64,000 bases of DNA, taken from NCBI RefSeq assembly GCF_022809115.1, contig NZ_JALGBH010000001.1, positions 1,364,001 to 1,428,000 of the forward strand. Reading direction: 5' to 3'. The DNA comes from Pedobacter montanisoli. Lineage in GTDB: Bacteria; Bacteroidota; Bacteroidia; Sphingobacteriales; Sphingobacteriaceae. Each line of letters starts with the position of its first letter. The first letter of the stretch is position 1. The notes under the pieces were generated by a model. That model saw only the letters and a list, made by a program, of their open reading frames with translations. It was not told the DNA's origin and made no database searches. Of the stretch, positions 53,145 through 57,704 are shown one piece after another. A program made the translations under genes and the position numbers.

Positions 53145-53516
53145 ATGAGGTTAATACTTTTATTTTGTTTGTTTAGCTTTGGTGCTTATGCCCAGGATAT
53201 ACAAACAAAACAGCCTGATACAGTAGTTCAAACCATTTTTACTACTTATTATGCTAAAAAATTTGAAGGTAGAAAAACTACAAGCGGAGAACGGTACAGA
53301 TCTTCTAAATTTACCGCAGCACACCGAACCCTGCCATTTGGAACCATCATAAAAGTGAAAAACTTACATAATGGTAAAACAGTAGAAGTACGTGTTAATG
53401 ACCGCGGCCCTTTCAGCAAAAAATTTGCTTTAGATATCTCAAAAGCAGCAGCTAAAGCCCTAGGTATTTTCAATTTAGGTTATGCCAGGGTAGAGATCTC
53501 TTATGTGACAAAATAA
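53145..53516 (+). CDS. RlpA-family septal lytic transglycosylase-like protein
   Basis: 123 residues from the ATG at 53145, where a signal peptide (LILLFCLFSFGAYAQ) begins. The double-psi beta-barrel shows TTSGERYRSSKFTAAHRTLPFG in family form and VRVNDRGPF with the catalytic Asp. Related RlpA proteins cleave denuded glycan strands at the septum. It lacks a SPOR domain. Periplasmic or outer-membrane side. Confidence 0.85.
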   Translation: MRLILLFCLFSFGAYAQDIQTKQPDTVVQTIFTTYYAKKFEGRKTTSGERYRSSKFTAAHRTLPFGTIIKVKNLHNGKTVEVRVNDRGPFSKKFALDISKAAAKALGIFNLGYARVEISYVTK

Positions 53517-53687
53517 CATGCTTAAACTGCCTTCTCAAAATTATTAACACCCTAAAAAAAATGCTAAGTACTTAAAATTAATTAATTAGTATTTTTTTGC
53601 GCAGGTCTTCACTCTAAAAAGCGCTAAAATCAACACTTCGCCAGAGTCATGTTAACAACTTTAAAAGTTATTCAGTAAGGTAAGTTT

Positions 53688-53695
53688 TATATTTG
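53688..53695 (+). promoter_or_regulatory. Promoter box of nrdB
   Basis: TATATTTG is an exact -7 match. A transcript from here would have an untranslated leader of about 215 bases before nrdB. Confidence 0.45.
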
Positions 53696-53762
53696 TTAAG
53701 CAGAGTTCTTTAATAGAAAGCATCCCATTTATTTTATAAATATTTAGGCATTAACAGGTTAC

Positions 53763-53876
53763 AAAGTTTAGCGATTTAAACTTTTTAAATCCGGTTGAAT
53801 GTGCCTGCTTCGATGCGCTATAAAGCTGCGATAAGGTAAATAAAAGTGATCATGAAATAAACTTCATGTCCGCTTT
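53763..53876 (+). promoter_or_regulatory. Structured nrdB leader
   Basis: Of the 400-base gap between the RlpA-like gene and nrdB, this part folds. AAAGTTTA (53763-53770) pairs with TAAACTTT (53777-53784). CATGAA (53851-53856) pairs with TTCATG (53863-53868), extended by AAAGTG (53843-53848) with CGCTTT (53871-53876). The rest of the gap shows no gene. It may be a regulatory RNA element. Confidence 0.45.
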
Positions 53877-53916
53877 CTGAAAATAGCTATTTCTAAACGT
53901 TAAAAAATTTATACAT

Positions 53917-54891
53917 ATGGAGCAAGATGAGTTACTACTAAGAGAAAATAAAGACCGCTTTGTTTTATTACCCATTAAGTACCCGGCAGTTTGGGAAATG
54001 TATAAAAAAGCTGAAGCAAGTTTTTGGACGGCCGAAGAAATTGACCTGTCTGATGACCTTAAACATTGGGAGAATCTGAACAGCGGTGAGCGTCATTTCA
54101 TTTCGCATATTCTAGCATTTTTTGCTGCTAGCGATGGTATTGTGAATGAGAATCTTGCTGTTAACTTTATGAGTGAGGTACAGATTCCTGAAGCCCGTTG
54201 TTATTACGGATTTCAGATTATGATGGAGAATATCCACTCAGAAACCTATGCTTTGTTAATAGATACTTATGTTAAAGATCCGGAAGAAAAAGATCGCTTA
54301 TTCCACGCCATAGAAACCGTTCCGGCTGTAAAGAGAAAAGCAGAATGGGCTTTAAGATGGATAGAGAACGGTTCTTTTGCTGAACGTCTGGTTGCTTTCG
54401 CAGCAGTGGAAGGTATTTTCTTTAGCGGTAGTTTCTGCTCTATTTTCTGGCTTAAAAAGCGTGGGCTGATGCCAGGATTAACTTTTAGTAACGAATTGAT
54501 TTCGAGAGATGAAGGATCTCACTGTGAGTTTGCTTGTTTATTATATAGTATGTTGAAAAACAAACTGAGTCAGGAACAAGTACATACGCTTATTAAAGAT
54601 GCAGTAGAGATTGAAAAAATGTTCATTACCGATGCTTTACCAGTAGCGTTAATTGGTATGAATGCCAAATTAATGAGCCAGTATATAGAATTTGTAGCCG
54701 ATAGATGGTTAACTGAACTGGGCTATGCAAAAATCTATAACTCTACTAATCCGTTTGATTTTATGGAAATGATTTCTTTACAAGGGAAAACCAATTTCTT
54801 TGAGAAACGTGTGGGAGATTACCAAAAAAGTGGTGTGTTAACCGCTTCAGAAGATAAAGCTCAGGCTTTTTCTTTAGATGAAGATTTTTAA
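53917..54891 (+). CDS. nrdB: Ribonucleotide reductase class Ia, beta subunit
   Basis: 324 residues, close to the eukaryotic R2 type. Iron ligands: D73, E104, H107, E165, E199 and H202; the radical Tyr is probably Y111 in SETYALL. The sequence [19 protein letters not shown], cut here, shows this region. It makes the tyrosyl radical for deoxynucleotide synthesis. It is followed by nrdA after 132 bases that include a dispersed repeat. Confidence 0.97.
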
Positions 54892-55023: not shown

Positions 55024-57402
55024 ATGTTTGTAATAAAAAGAGACGGCCGCAAAGAAGCGGTAAAATTTGATAAAATTACAGCTCGTATAGAGAAGCTGTG
55101 CTATGGTTTTAATGCTGATCTGGTAGATCCTATCGATGTAGCCAGAAAAGTAATTGAAGGTTTATATGATGGCGTAACCACATCTGAACTGGATAACCTG
55201 GCAGCAGAAACAGCAGCATCTTTAACAACCAAACATCCTGATTATGCATTGCTGGCATCCCGTATTGCTGTTTCTAACTTACATAAGAATACCTTAAAGT
55301 CTTTCTCTAAAACCATGGAGATGCTTTATAACTATGTGGATCCAAAAACAGGAAAAGATTCGGCTTTAATTGCTGACGATGTATGGAAAGTTATCGAAGA
55401 GAATGCAGAAATTTTGGATAGTACCATTATTTATGACAGAGACTTCGGCTTCGATTATTTTGGTTTTAAAACTTTAGAAAAATCATATTTACTAAAAGTT
55501 AATGGTAAAATTGTTGAGCGTCCTCAACATTTATTTATGCGTGTTGCTGTTGGTATTCATAAAGAAGATATTGATAGTGCAATTGCTACTTATAATTTAA
55601 TGAGTGAGCGTTGGTTTACGCATGCAACACCTACTTTGTTCAATGCTGCAACACCAAAACCGCAAATGTCTTCATGCTTCTTGTTAACTATGCAGGATGA
55701 CAGTATTGAGGGTATTTATGATACATTGAAACAAACGGCTAAGATTTCTCAAAGTGCAGGTGGTATTGGTTTAAGCATACACAATATCCGTGCTACAGGT
55801 GCTTATATTGGCGGTACAAACGGAACAAGTAATGGTATTGTACCTATGTTACGTGTTTTCAATGACACTGCCCGCTATGTAGATCAGGGTGGTGGTAAAC
55901 GTAAAGGTGCGTTTGCTATTTATTTAGAGCCTTGGCATGCTGATATTTTTGAATTCTTAGACCTGCGTAAAAACCATGGTAAAGAAGAAATGCGTGCCCG
56001 TGATTTATTCTATGCACTTTGGATCAACGATTTGTTTATGCAACGTGTAGAAGAAAATGGAGATTGGAGCCTATTCTCTCCAGATGAGGCACCAGGCTTA
56101 GCAGATTGCCATAGTGAAGAATTTAACAAATTATATGTTAAATACGAGCAGGAAGGCAGAGCCCGTAAAACAGTTAAAGCACAAGAGTTATGGTTTGCTA
56201 TTTTAGATGCTCAGATTGAGACAGGTACGCCATATTTGTTGTATAAAGATGCCGCAAACAGTAAATCTAACCAGCAAAATTTAGGTACGATTAAGTCTTC
56301 AAACTTATGTACTGAAATTATTGAATACACTTCTAAAGACGAGGTGGCGGTTTGTAATCTGGCTTCGTTGGCATTACCTCGCTTTGTAATCAATGGAGAA
56401 TTTGACCATCAGAAATTATATGATGTAACTTATCAGGCTACTTTGAACCTGAATAGAATTATCGACCATAACTATTATCCGGTTAAAGAAGCAGAGAATT
56501 CAAATTTGCGTCACCGTCCGGTTGGTTTAGGTGTACAAGGATTAGCTGATGCGTTTATTTTAATGCGTTATCCTTTTGAAAGCGATGCCGCTAAAAGATT
56601 GAATAAAGATATCTTTGAAACGATTTATTTTGCTGCAATGACTGCTTCAGCAGATTTAGCAGAGAAACATGGTGCTTACAAAACCTTTAAAGGTTCTCCT
56701 TTATCAAAAGGACAATTCCAGTTTGATTTATGGAATGTAACACCAGACAGCAATCGTTGGGATTGGGAAAGCTTAAGGAAACGCGTGGTGAAAAAAGGTG
56801 TTTACAACTCGTTGTTAGTAGCTCCGATGCCTACAGCTTCAACTTCACAAATTTTAGGTAACAATGAATGTTTTGAGCCATATACTTCTAACATTTACAC
56901 ACGTCGTGTATTAAGCGGTGAGTTTATTGTGGTAAACAAACATTTATTAAAAGATTTGGTAGCTTTAGGTTTATGGAGCCCGCAAATGAAAGATAGAATT
57001 ATCTTAGCTAACGGTTCTATTCAAGATATACCTGAAATTCCAGATTATATCAAAGAATTGTATAAAACAGTTTGGGAGATCAAGATGCGTAATATTATAG
57101 ATATGGCAGCTGATAGAGGTGCTTATATCTGTCAATCGCAATCATTGAATTTATTCGTGAACTCGCCAAATACTTCAAAACTAACTTCAATGCACTTCTA
57201 TGCATGGAAAAAAGGTTTAAAAACCGGTATGTATTATCTACGTACACAAGCAGCCGGACAGGCAGTTAAGTTTACGGTAGAGAACCAGGCTGGTAAAGCT
57301 ATGGAGGCGGTTATTCCTGAAGTAATTGAAAACGCAGCTGAGGAAATCATCTCAGGTCCGGTTTGTACAATGGAAGAAGGATGTATCAGTTGTTCAGGAT
57401 AA
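55024..57402 (+). CDS. nrdA: Ribonucleotide reductase class Ia, alpha subunit
   Basis: 792 residues. An ATP-cone lies at about 1-92 (allosteric activity site), then the 10-stranded barrel with [17 protein letters not shown] region, NLCTEI and [23 protein letters not shown] in family form. The C-terminus carries the redox Cys pair CISC that thioredoxin or glutaredoxin reduces. It reduces ribonucleoside diphosphates with NrdB. Confidence 0.97.
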
Positions 57403-57491
57403 TATCTTAAAGATTAATTTTAACAAATCGTTATAATGTAAGGTTTTGCAACAAAATGCAAAACCTTATTTTTTGTCTGTATTTTTACATT

Positions 57492-57704
57492 ATGTCAGCT
57501 CATGAAAAACATGAAACAATCAGTTGCGAACGCTGCGGTACAGCTATGGTATGTAAAGCCAACGCGTATACTAAATGCCAATGCAGTGTGGTACCGTTAA
57601 ATCTTAATGAAACACAATACATTAGCGAATTATATGACGGCTGTTTATGTGCTGCGTGTTTATTTTCTTTAAAAGAGGAATTTAATGAAGATTATAAGGG
57701 CTGA
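57492..57704 (+). CDS. Cysteine-rich CWC-family small protein
   Basis: I start at MSAHEK; an upstream in-frame extension is hydrophobic and lies in the promoter. The 70-residue protein has CERCGTAMVC, then KCQC (Trp replaced by Gln in the CWC motif) and GCLCAACL, eight Cys in all, probably a zinc ribbon. Cytosolic; function unknown. Follows nrdA by 89 bases. Confidence 0.7.
   Translation: MSAHEKHETISCERCGTAMVCKANAYTKCQCSVVPLNLNETQYISELYDGCLCAACLFSLKEEFNEDYKG

Follow-up and report, generated by a model that had tools for sequence, protein, structure and literature searches.

A structured leader before nrdB in Pedobacter, most likely the successor of a cobalamin riboswitch

Why does the class I ribonucleotide reductase operon of Pedobacter carry a long untranslated leader, and what might that leader do? 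A sequence-only reading of the locus had proposed that a promoter box gives a leader of 215 nt with two hairpins, that no known riboswitch is recognizable in it and that it may sense nucleotide or cofactor levels. We examined these proposals in the window, a stretch of 64,000 nt from the 3.29 Mb genome of Pedobacter montanisoli, and in nrdB leaders from the genus and from related genera.

The nrdB locus and its leader

In the window, nrdB (53917–54891, forward strand; PF00268, 3.1e-120) encodes the small subunit of the class I reductase and is followed by nrdA (55024–57402, forward strand; PF02867, PF03477 and TIGR02506), which encodes the large subunit with its ATP-cone. A small Cys-rich CWC protein (PF14375) is encoded at 57456–57704, directly 3′ of nrdA. 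Upstream of the two reductase genes, an rlpA-type gene (TIGR00413) ends at 53516, and the stretch at 53517–53687, which lies outside the leader, holds a hairpin with a T-run and the promoter region. The hairpin, an inverted repeat (21 nt, 86%) at 53555–53598 on the forward strand that leads into the T-run, is a probable intrinsic terminator of the rlpA-type gene, and a comparable hairpin with a T-run is visible by eye after this gene in relatives. It is absent from the list of the terminator consensus scan. A terminator or attenuator was also considered and set aside, with no terminator-like site in 53400–54000 by a scan that is insensitive, having likewise missed the hairpin at 53555–53598.

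The promoter is marked by the −7 box TATATTTG (53688–53695, forward strand), which we take to be of the Bacteroidetes type. The pattern TAnnTTTG is present in 95 of 95 Pedobacter rows at a distance of 93–281 nt from the ATG (L154 apart), and the long leader is thus conserved in the genus. Neither a sigma-70 scan nor a scan for TTTG-18N-TAnnTTTG lists the nrdB promoter. Judging by the position of the box, transcription would start near 53700 and yield a leader RNA of ~215 nt (53701–53916, forward strand) ahead of the nrdB ATG at 53917, in agreement with the earlier proposal. Further upstream lies TGTTAACAACTT (53650–53661, forward strand), a candidate regulator site with a single copy in the window's genome and two copies in the backward control; by eye, the same or a similar site precedes the nrdB promoter in relatives. 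Some relatives (among L220, L228 and L204) show TGTGGATAACTT or TGTTTAAAACTT at this position, the first of which, as we take it, resembles a DnaA box. Because TGTTAACAACTT occurs only once in the genome, we rejected it as a general DnaA site.

The two predicted hairpins are both present in the window and in its closest relative, a sister genome (L003) whose leader is 92% identical. The first pairs GATTTAAA with TTTAAATC over eight base pairs (53773–53780/53784–53791 within 53773–53791, forward strand; inverted-repeat scan). The second, of 12 pairs with a symmetric 2x2 internal loop, spans 53843–53876 on the forward strand (53843–53848 and 53851–53856 with 53863–53868 and 53871–53876) and ends 40 nt before nrdB. 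In a consensus structure of window and sister, four base pairs change and all are still paired, one of them through a two-sided change (53848–53871 in the 12-pair hairpin, G-C in the window and A-U in the sister); this consensus is fitted to the same two sequences on which it is judged. It contains a central rod (53748–53802, forward strand) in which 53748–53758 pairs with 53791–53802, and it prefers an inner hairpin at 53763–53771/53776–53784 to the 8-pair hairpin, which is missing from the consensus and forms an alternative to this inner part of the rod. The position of the rod matches, by eye, that of the covarying middle helix of relatives. A closing helix is also proposed for window and sister only, with a 5′ strand at 53703–53719 (forward strand) and a partner at 53890–53910 just before the start codon (53703–53707/53906–53910, 53709–53713/53900–53904 and 53714–53719/53890–53895); it shows one consistent change and none that breaks it.

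Close to the start codon, the motif TGTCCGCTTTCTG (53867–53879, forward strand) bears a by-eye likeness to TTGTCGGCTCTG of the Pedobacter leaders termed group B and to TTTTGTCAATTCCTG of cobalamin leaders, and profile searches for this pre-start motif and platform did not reach the window. A block like TTTCTAAACGTTAAAAAA stands before the nrdB start in the window (53890–53908) and in several group 7 leaders (L004, L017, L040, L139 and L141). Such a block could pair with the 5′ end in place of the rod's own partner, and a switch between the two pairings is possible.

No Rfam family matches the window at the gathering cut-off, which bears out the earlier remark that no known riboswitch could be recognized. 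In 53500–54000, RF00174 is not found at E ≤ 10 and all Rfam matches at that level are sub-threshold, so that a known family for the leader was rejected. Against dinucleotide shuffles, 229 nt of the window fold with a z of −0.89 (31 of 200 shuffles equally good) and 400 nt with a z of −1.53 (9 of 100 equally good); the first 150 nt of the leader give −1.1 in the window and 0.07 in the sister. As the fold of the window alone does not rise above its shuffles, we collected the nrdB leaders of the genus, and it is only through comparison with relatives that the structure exceeds chance.

Covarying structure in the leaders of relatives

The gene was found in 98 of 99 genomes of the genus, and 90 leaders were taken (30 loci plus 60). 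Adding the named-contig copies gave 95 distinct rows, and dropping L154, whose start is mis-assigned, left 94 leaders; L085 (Pedobacter segetis) lies outside this set. Over their first 150 nt, the 94 leaders have a mean folding z of −2.07, and 52 of them fall below −2, as against means of −0.65 in the 150 nt upstream of the box (14 of 93 below −2) and −0.25 in 150 nt inside nrdB (5 of 94). The leaders split by sequence into groups, between which divergence within Pedobacter is strong, and it is the middle of the leader that differs, most of all in the window. When the window was aligned with 17 relatives (alignment A3), RNAalifold returned five consensus pairs and no covarying ones; we claim no covariation on A3 because the sequence alignment breaks mid-leader. 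Alignment A5, which includes antisense matches and was fitted to the model, was excluded as evidence, and A4 omits six of the 37 leaders that make up group B.

The covariation sought in the nrdB leaders of relatives is present in group B and in a second group. In group B, the largest of the groups, RNAalifold on alignment A2 (37 leaders) gives a long rod that begins at the transcript 5′ end, where AAAG-UUC-UUUAACUU pairs with GGGUUAGCACUUU ~130 nt downstream. Across the 43 pairs of this rod, 97.7% of cells are paired, compared to 28.7–56.4% in slid controls, and two-sided changes occur at 8 pairs in 27 cells, for a shuffle mean of 7.1. None of 500 shuffles reaches any of five measures, and we give most weight to the slid control because relatedness inflates shuffle tests. 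The helix adjoining the start codon (A2 columns 177–190 with 224–236) is 92.9% paired versus at most 40.8% when slid; it has 10 two-sided cells, and two of its five measures fail to beat the shuffles. The second group (23 of 24 leaders; alignment A1, which omits L047) was not structure-fitted, its structure having been read from single folds. Here 78.6% of cells are paired versus 29.1–50.5% in slid controls, with 92.8% in the helix UAUUUAGUU/AACUAAGUA; the two-sided pairs number 13, barely above the slid versions (up to 12), and RNAalifold on A1 by itself gives 12 pairs.

Upstream peptides were also considered. By eye, no uORF frame is kept across the leader groups, and a Cys-rich upstream peptide in group B (TGCCTTTGTCGGCTCTG read as codons, by eye and without a statistic) was dropped because neither its reading frame nor its stops are constant and because its bases coincide with the riboswitch platform motif described below.

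Within the covarying helices of group B lies a nearly invariant unpaired stretch, AAATATAAAA, an arrangement that would suit a new riboswitch for a nucleotide, a dNTP or another cofactor, possibly seated on an old expression platform, as would the position of the leader before a dNTP-making operon. This explanation appears rather unlikely to us. In all 19 of the group B genomes searched, a covariance model built from 31 group B leaders (R1) matched nrdB, and it matched only one further place, at E 0.85; these searches scored 150 candidates per genome, such that weak copies could be missed, and the one genome of another genus gave no match. The variation of the mid-leader between groups, greatest in the window, also speaks against this explanation. 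Among 88 sources, R1 picked up a further 15 Pedobacter leaders at E ≤ 1 (best 0.0017); it missed the leader of the window, where it gave one chance match elsewhere.

A cobalamin riboswitch at nrdB in related genera

Outside the genus, a first survey placed the cobalamin riboswitch (RF00174) in the nrdB leader of two of 20 loci, which score 68.6 and 59.8 bits where the cut-off is 31.5. The family survey found nrdB in 65 of 121 genomes, 51 of them from other genera (L198–L248, with L224 a 233-nt contig end). Among these 51, RF00174 is above cut-off in 23 nrdB leaders, and NrdJ (TIGR02504) is above cut-off in 35 genomes (27 of 40 plus 8 of 11). The riboswitch stands at nrdB in 23 of 35 genomes with NrdJ versus 0 of 16 without it (Fisher 6e-6, a value that is indicative only because the genomes are related and not independent). 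At nrdB of the other 12 genomes with NrdJ no riboswitch was seen, one of these loci being on a contig too short to tell.

Within Pedobacter, cobalamin riboswitches are found in 96 of 97 genomes, with none at nrdB among the matches listed. RF00174 is absent at E ≤ 10 from the 13 Pedobacter nrdB loci scanned (that of the window and 12 others), and no Rfam family is above cut-off in 12 other Pedobacter nrdB leaders. NrdJ is present in 11 of 60 tested Pedobacter genomes (4 of 16 plus 7 of 44) as an open frame of 851–889 aa, compared to 1100–1152 aa in the riboswitch genomes, and no riboswitch was seen at nrdB in these 11. The genome of the window has no NrdJ above cut-off, only NrdA, which scores below it. 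The suggestion of a cofactor is near the mark for the evolution of the site, since a cobalamin riboswitch occupies the same place in related genera. The window itself has no RF00174 match at E ≤ 10 and its genome no NrdJ above cut-off. In family members with NrdJ, the cobalamin riboswitch presumably shuts off the class I nrdBA operon when B12 is present, by analogy with Streptomyces, for which PMC4991794 (citing Borovok 2006) describes AdoCbl acting on a B12 riboswitch before the class I nrdABS genes in an organism that also has the class II NrdJ.

A second link to the riboswitch comes from the expression platform. A profile built from the expression platforms of the 23 riboswitch leaders matched 23 of 37 leaders in group B at the corresponding place, 16 of them at E < 0.05 and the best at 0.0013, whereas the best of 585 shuffles reached E 2.9. 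The match rests on the motif ACTTTCAC..GTTTTGATAAAAG..TTTGTC..TCTG. One other Pedobacter leader was listed at E 6.2, which is chance level, and the platform profiles reach neither the window nor its sister, nor does any cobalamin profile reach the window. The B3 profile matched one of 57 other Pedobacter leaders and one of 570 shuffles; its matches to 12 of the 51 family leaders, nine with the riboswitch, at E 0.98–6.3 lend weak support. Many riboswitch leaders allow pairing between the pre-start bases CUUUUGUCAA and UUGACGAAAG, which stands behind the loop CUUUCACG, and by eye the CGUG of L5 could kiss the CACG of this loop, where group B has CACA.

Some leaders of the family resemble stages between these forms. 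L227, from a genome with NrdJ, matches the platform at 7.6e-5 and has no RF00174 match at E ≤ 10, and its sequence is that of a possible intermediate, a platform without a recognized aptamer. Six leaders from genomes without NrdJ (L199–L203 and L218) have, to the eye, the appearance of decayed aptamers; RF00174 misses all of them at E ≤ 10, and the full-length profile gives L218 an E of 0.18 but a shuffled sequence 0.07. As read from these alignments and profiles, the family seems to form a natural series for riboswitch loss, made up of a riboswitch together with NrdJ, a platform in which no aptamer is recognized and, where NrdJ is lacking, a covarying structure.

Such a series could also end in a functionless relic, with the riboswitch decayed along with NrdJ and the remainder drifting. 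The absence of both aptamer and NrdJ is compatible with this, as are the window's fold, no better than its shuffles, and the strong divergence between Pedobacter groups. Conservation cuts both ways. In the pair formed by window and sister, leader identity is 0.92, nrdB 4-fold sites are 0.67 identical and the spacer upstream of the promoter 0.91; leader and spacer compare as 0.84 versus 0.83 in group B, 0.64 versus 0.56 in cluster 8 and 0.65 versus 0.74 in cluster 7. In two groups spacer and leader are about equally conserved, and in a third the spacer is ahead. Against drift stand the compensatory changes and the 97.7% pairing across 37 leaders, together with a leader identity above that of nrdB 4-fold sites in 173 of the 178 pairs sampled across the four groups. 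The first 70 nt of the leader are 0.77–0.97 identical within groups and exceed the spacer in four of four. A relic is, of all the explanations weighed here, the one in which we place the least confidence.

The transcript 5′ end and the origin of the leader

The transcript carries near its 5′ end, shortly after the promoter box, GTTCTTTAA (53705–53713, forward strand), a boxA-like element; this call, and that of the GUUCUUUAA(CA) core, leans on a boxA consensus that we assume. Across the family, many nrdB leaders, with and without the riboswitch, have the GTTCTTTAA(CA) core a few bases behind this box, and the first block of the window leader, GTTCTTTAATAGAAAGCA included, is nearly identical in some other leaders. 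In the window's genome, TATATTTG+N4-13+GTTCTTTA occurs once, as it does in the backward control. The leader before the 16S gene (L181, G000 C3) holds AAGTTCATTAAAAAG, which is close to the core of the nrdB element.

An element of this type raises the question of a protein route, in which a 5′ boxA-type site would bind NusB–NusE (S10) and protect the leader from Rho, with the rod presenting or hiding the site. The sequence GTTCTT, or one that differs from it by a single base (GTTATT, GTTCAT), is found at most 22 nt after TAnnTTT[GA] in 20 of 23 riboswitch leaders, 17 of 28 other leaders and 73 of 94 Pedobacter leaders, which are raw counts without a chance control. Roles for boxA in 5′ UTRs have been described: a boxA placed upstream keeps a long noncoding 5′ UTR from causing Rho-dependent repression, as outlined in PMC4807359, and boxA is active in the suhB 5′ UTR according to PMC10931766. 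The latter source, as excerpted, has uS10–NusB binding single-stranded boxA, whereas the group B motif lies partly inside helices 1–2. In addition, the rRNA leader of the window's genome (L181) has GTTCATTAA at the boxA-looking place, as judged by eye. As the main explanation of the leader, we consider this route improbable.

The reading that we prefer, at a probability of roughly 0.55, takes the nrdB leader to be a structured 5′ UTR under selection. It would descend, in remodelled form, from an AdoCbl-riboswitch leader, would have lost the aptamer and would now control nrdBA without B12. This reading is supported by the conserved position, the covarying structure in relatives, the absence of the aptamer, the co-occurrence of riboswitch and NrdJ and the likeness of the platform in group B. 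Most likely, the cobalamin riboswitch either gave way to the structured leader or developed into it, and the leader of the window is probably a remnant, or a rebuilt form, left after loss of the B12 sensor; for the window RNA itself, we infer descent from a riboswitch by orthology and the shared 5′ block. In the lineage of the window, NrdJ and the aptamer would have gone and B12 control would have been lost, and the promoter, the boxA-like 5′ end GUUCUUUAA, the long rod and the hairpin or pre-start element would have been kept. The leader would now set nrdBA output at translation start or in early elongation, independently of B12. Likely handles would be the pre-start hairpin, acting on translation start, and the boxA, which may recruit Nus factors and shield the long leader from Rho. 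Only tentatively do we entertain the possibility that, after the loss of NrdJ, the riboswitch was rebuilt and not deleted: a new rod would have taken the place of the aptamer and would use parts of the old platform to sense something else, for example growth rate or dNTP state.

Despite its likeness to several known systems, the leader differs from each of them. With the RF00174 leaders before class I reductases (Streptomyces nrdABS and nrdB of the family), it shares the operon, the place and a similar promoter-proximal 5′ block, and the RF00174 leaders have an expression-platform sequence like that of group B; it differs in the lack of a cobalamin match in the window and 12 other Pedobacter loci and of NrdJ above cut-off in the window's genome. 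Near the nrdB transcript start, the GUUCUUUAA(CA) core recalls the boxA (NusB–NusE) of rRNA and suhB leaders, but in group B part of the motif is helical, and NusB–NusE binding is putative here. The Pedo-repair RNA (RF01715) is, as described in PMC2864571, another structured RNA candidate from Pedobacter, and it has no match in the window. Titles and the opening lines of abstracts, with few subscription journals among them, held nothing on a Pedobacter nrdB leader or on cobalamin riboswitches at nrdB in the family.

The loss or conversion of a riboswitch is rarely visible, and here one family seems to show a series of such states at one gene, in which the fate of a riboswitch that has lost its physiological reason becomes directly testable. 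For these bacteria, we propose a structured leader of a class I reductase that is absent from Rfam. If the leader is indeed a rebuilt sensor, it would be a riboswitch whose input has changed with site and output remaining the same.
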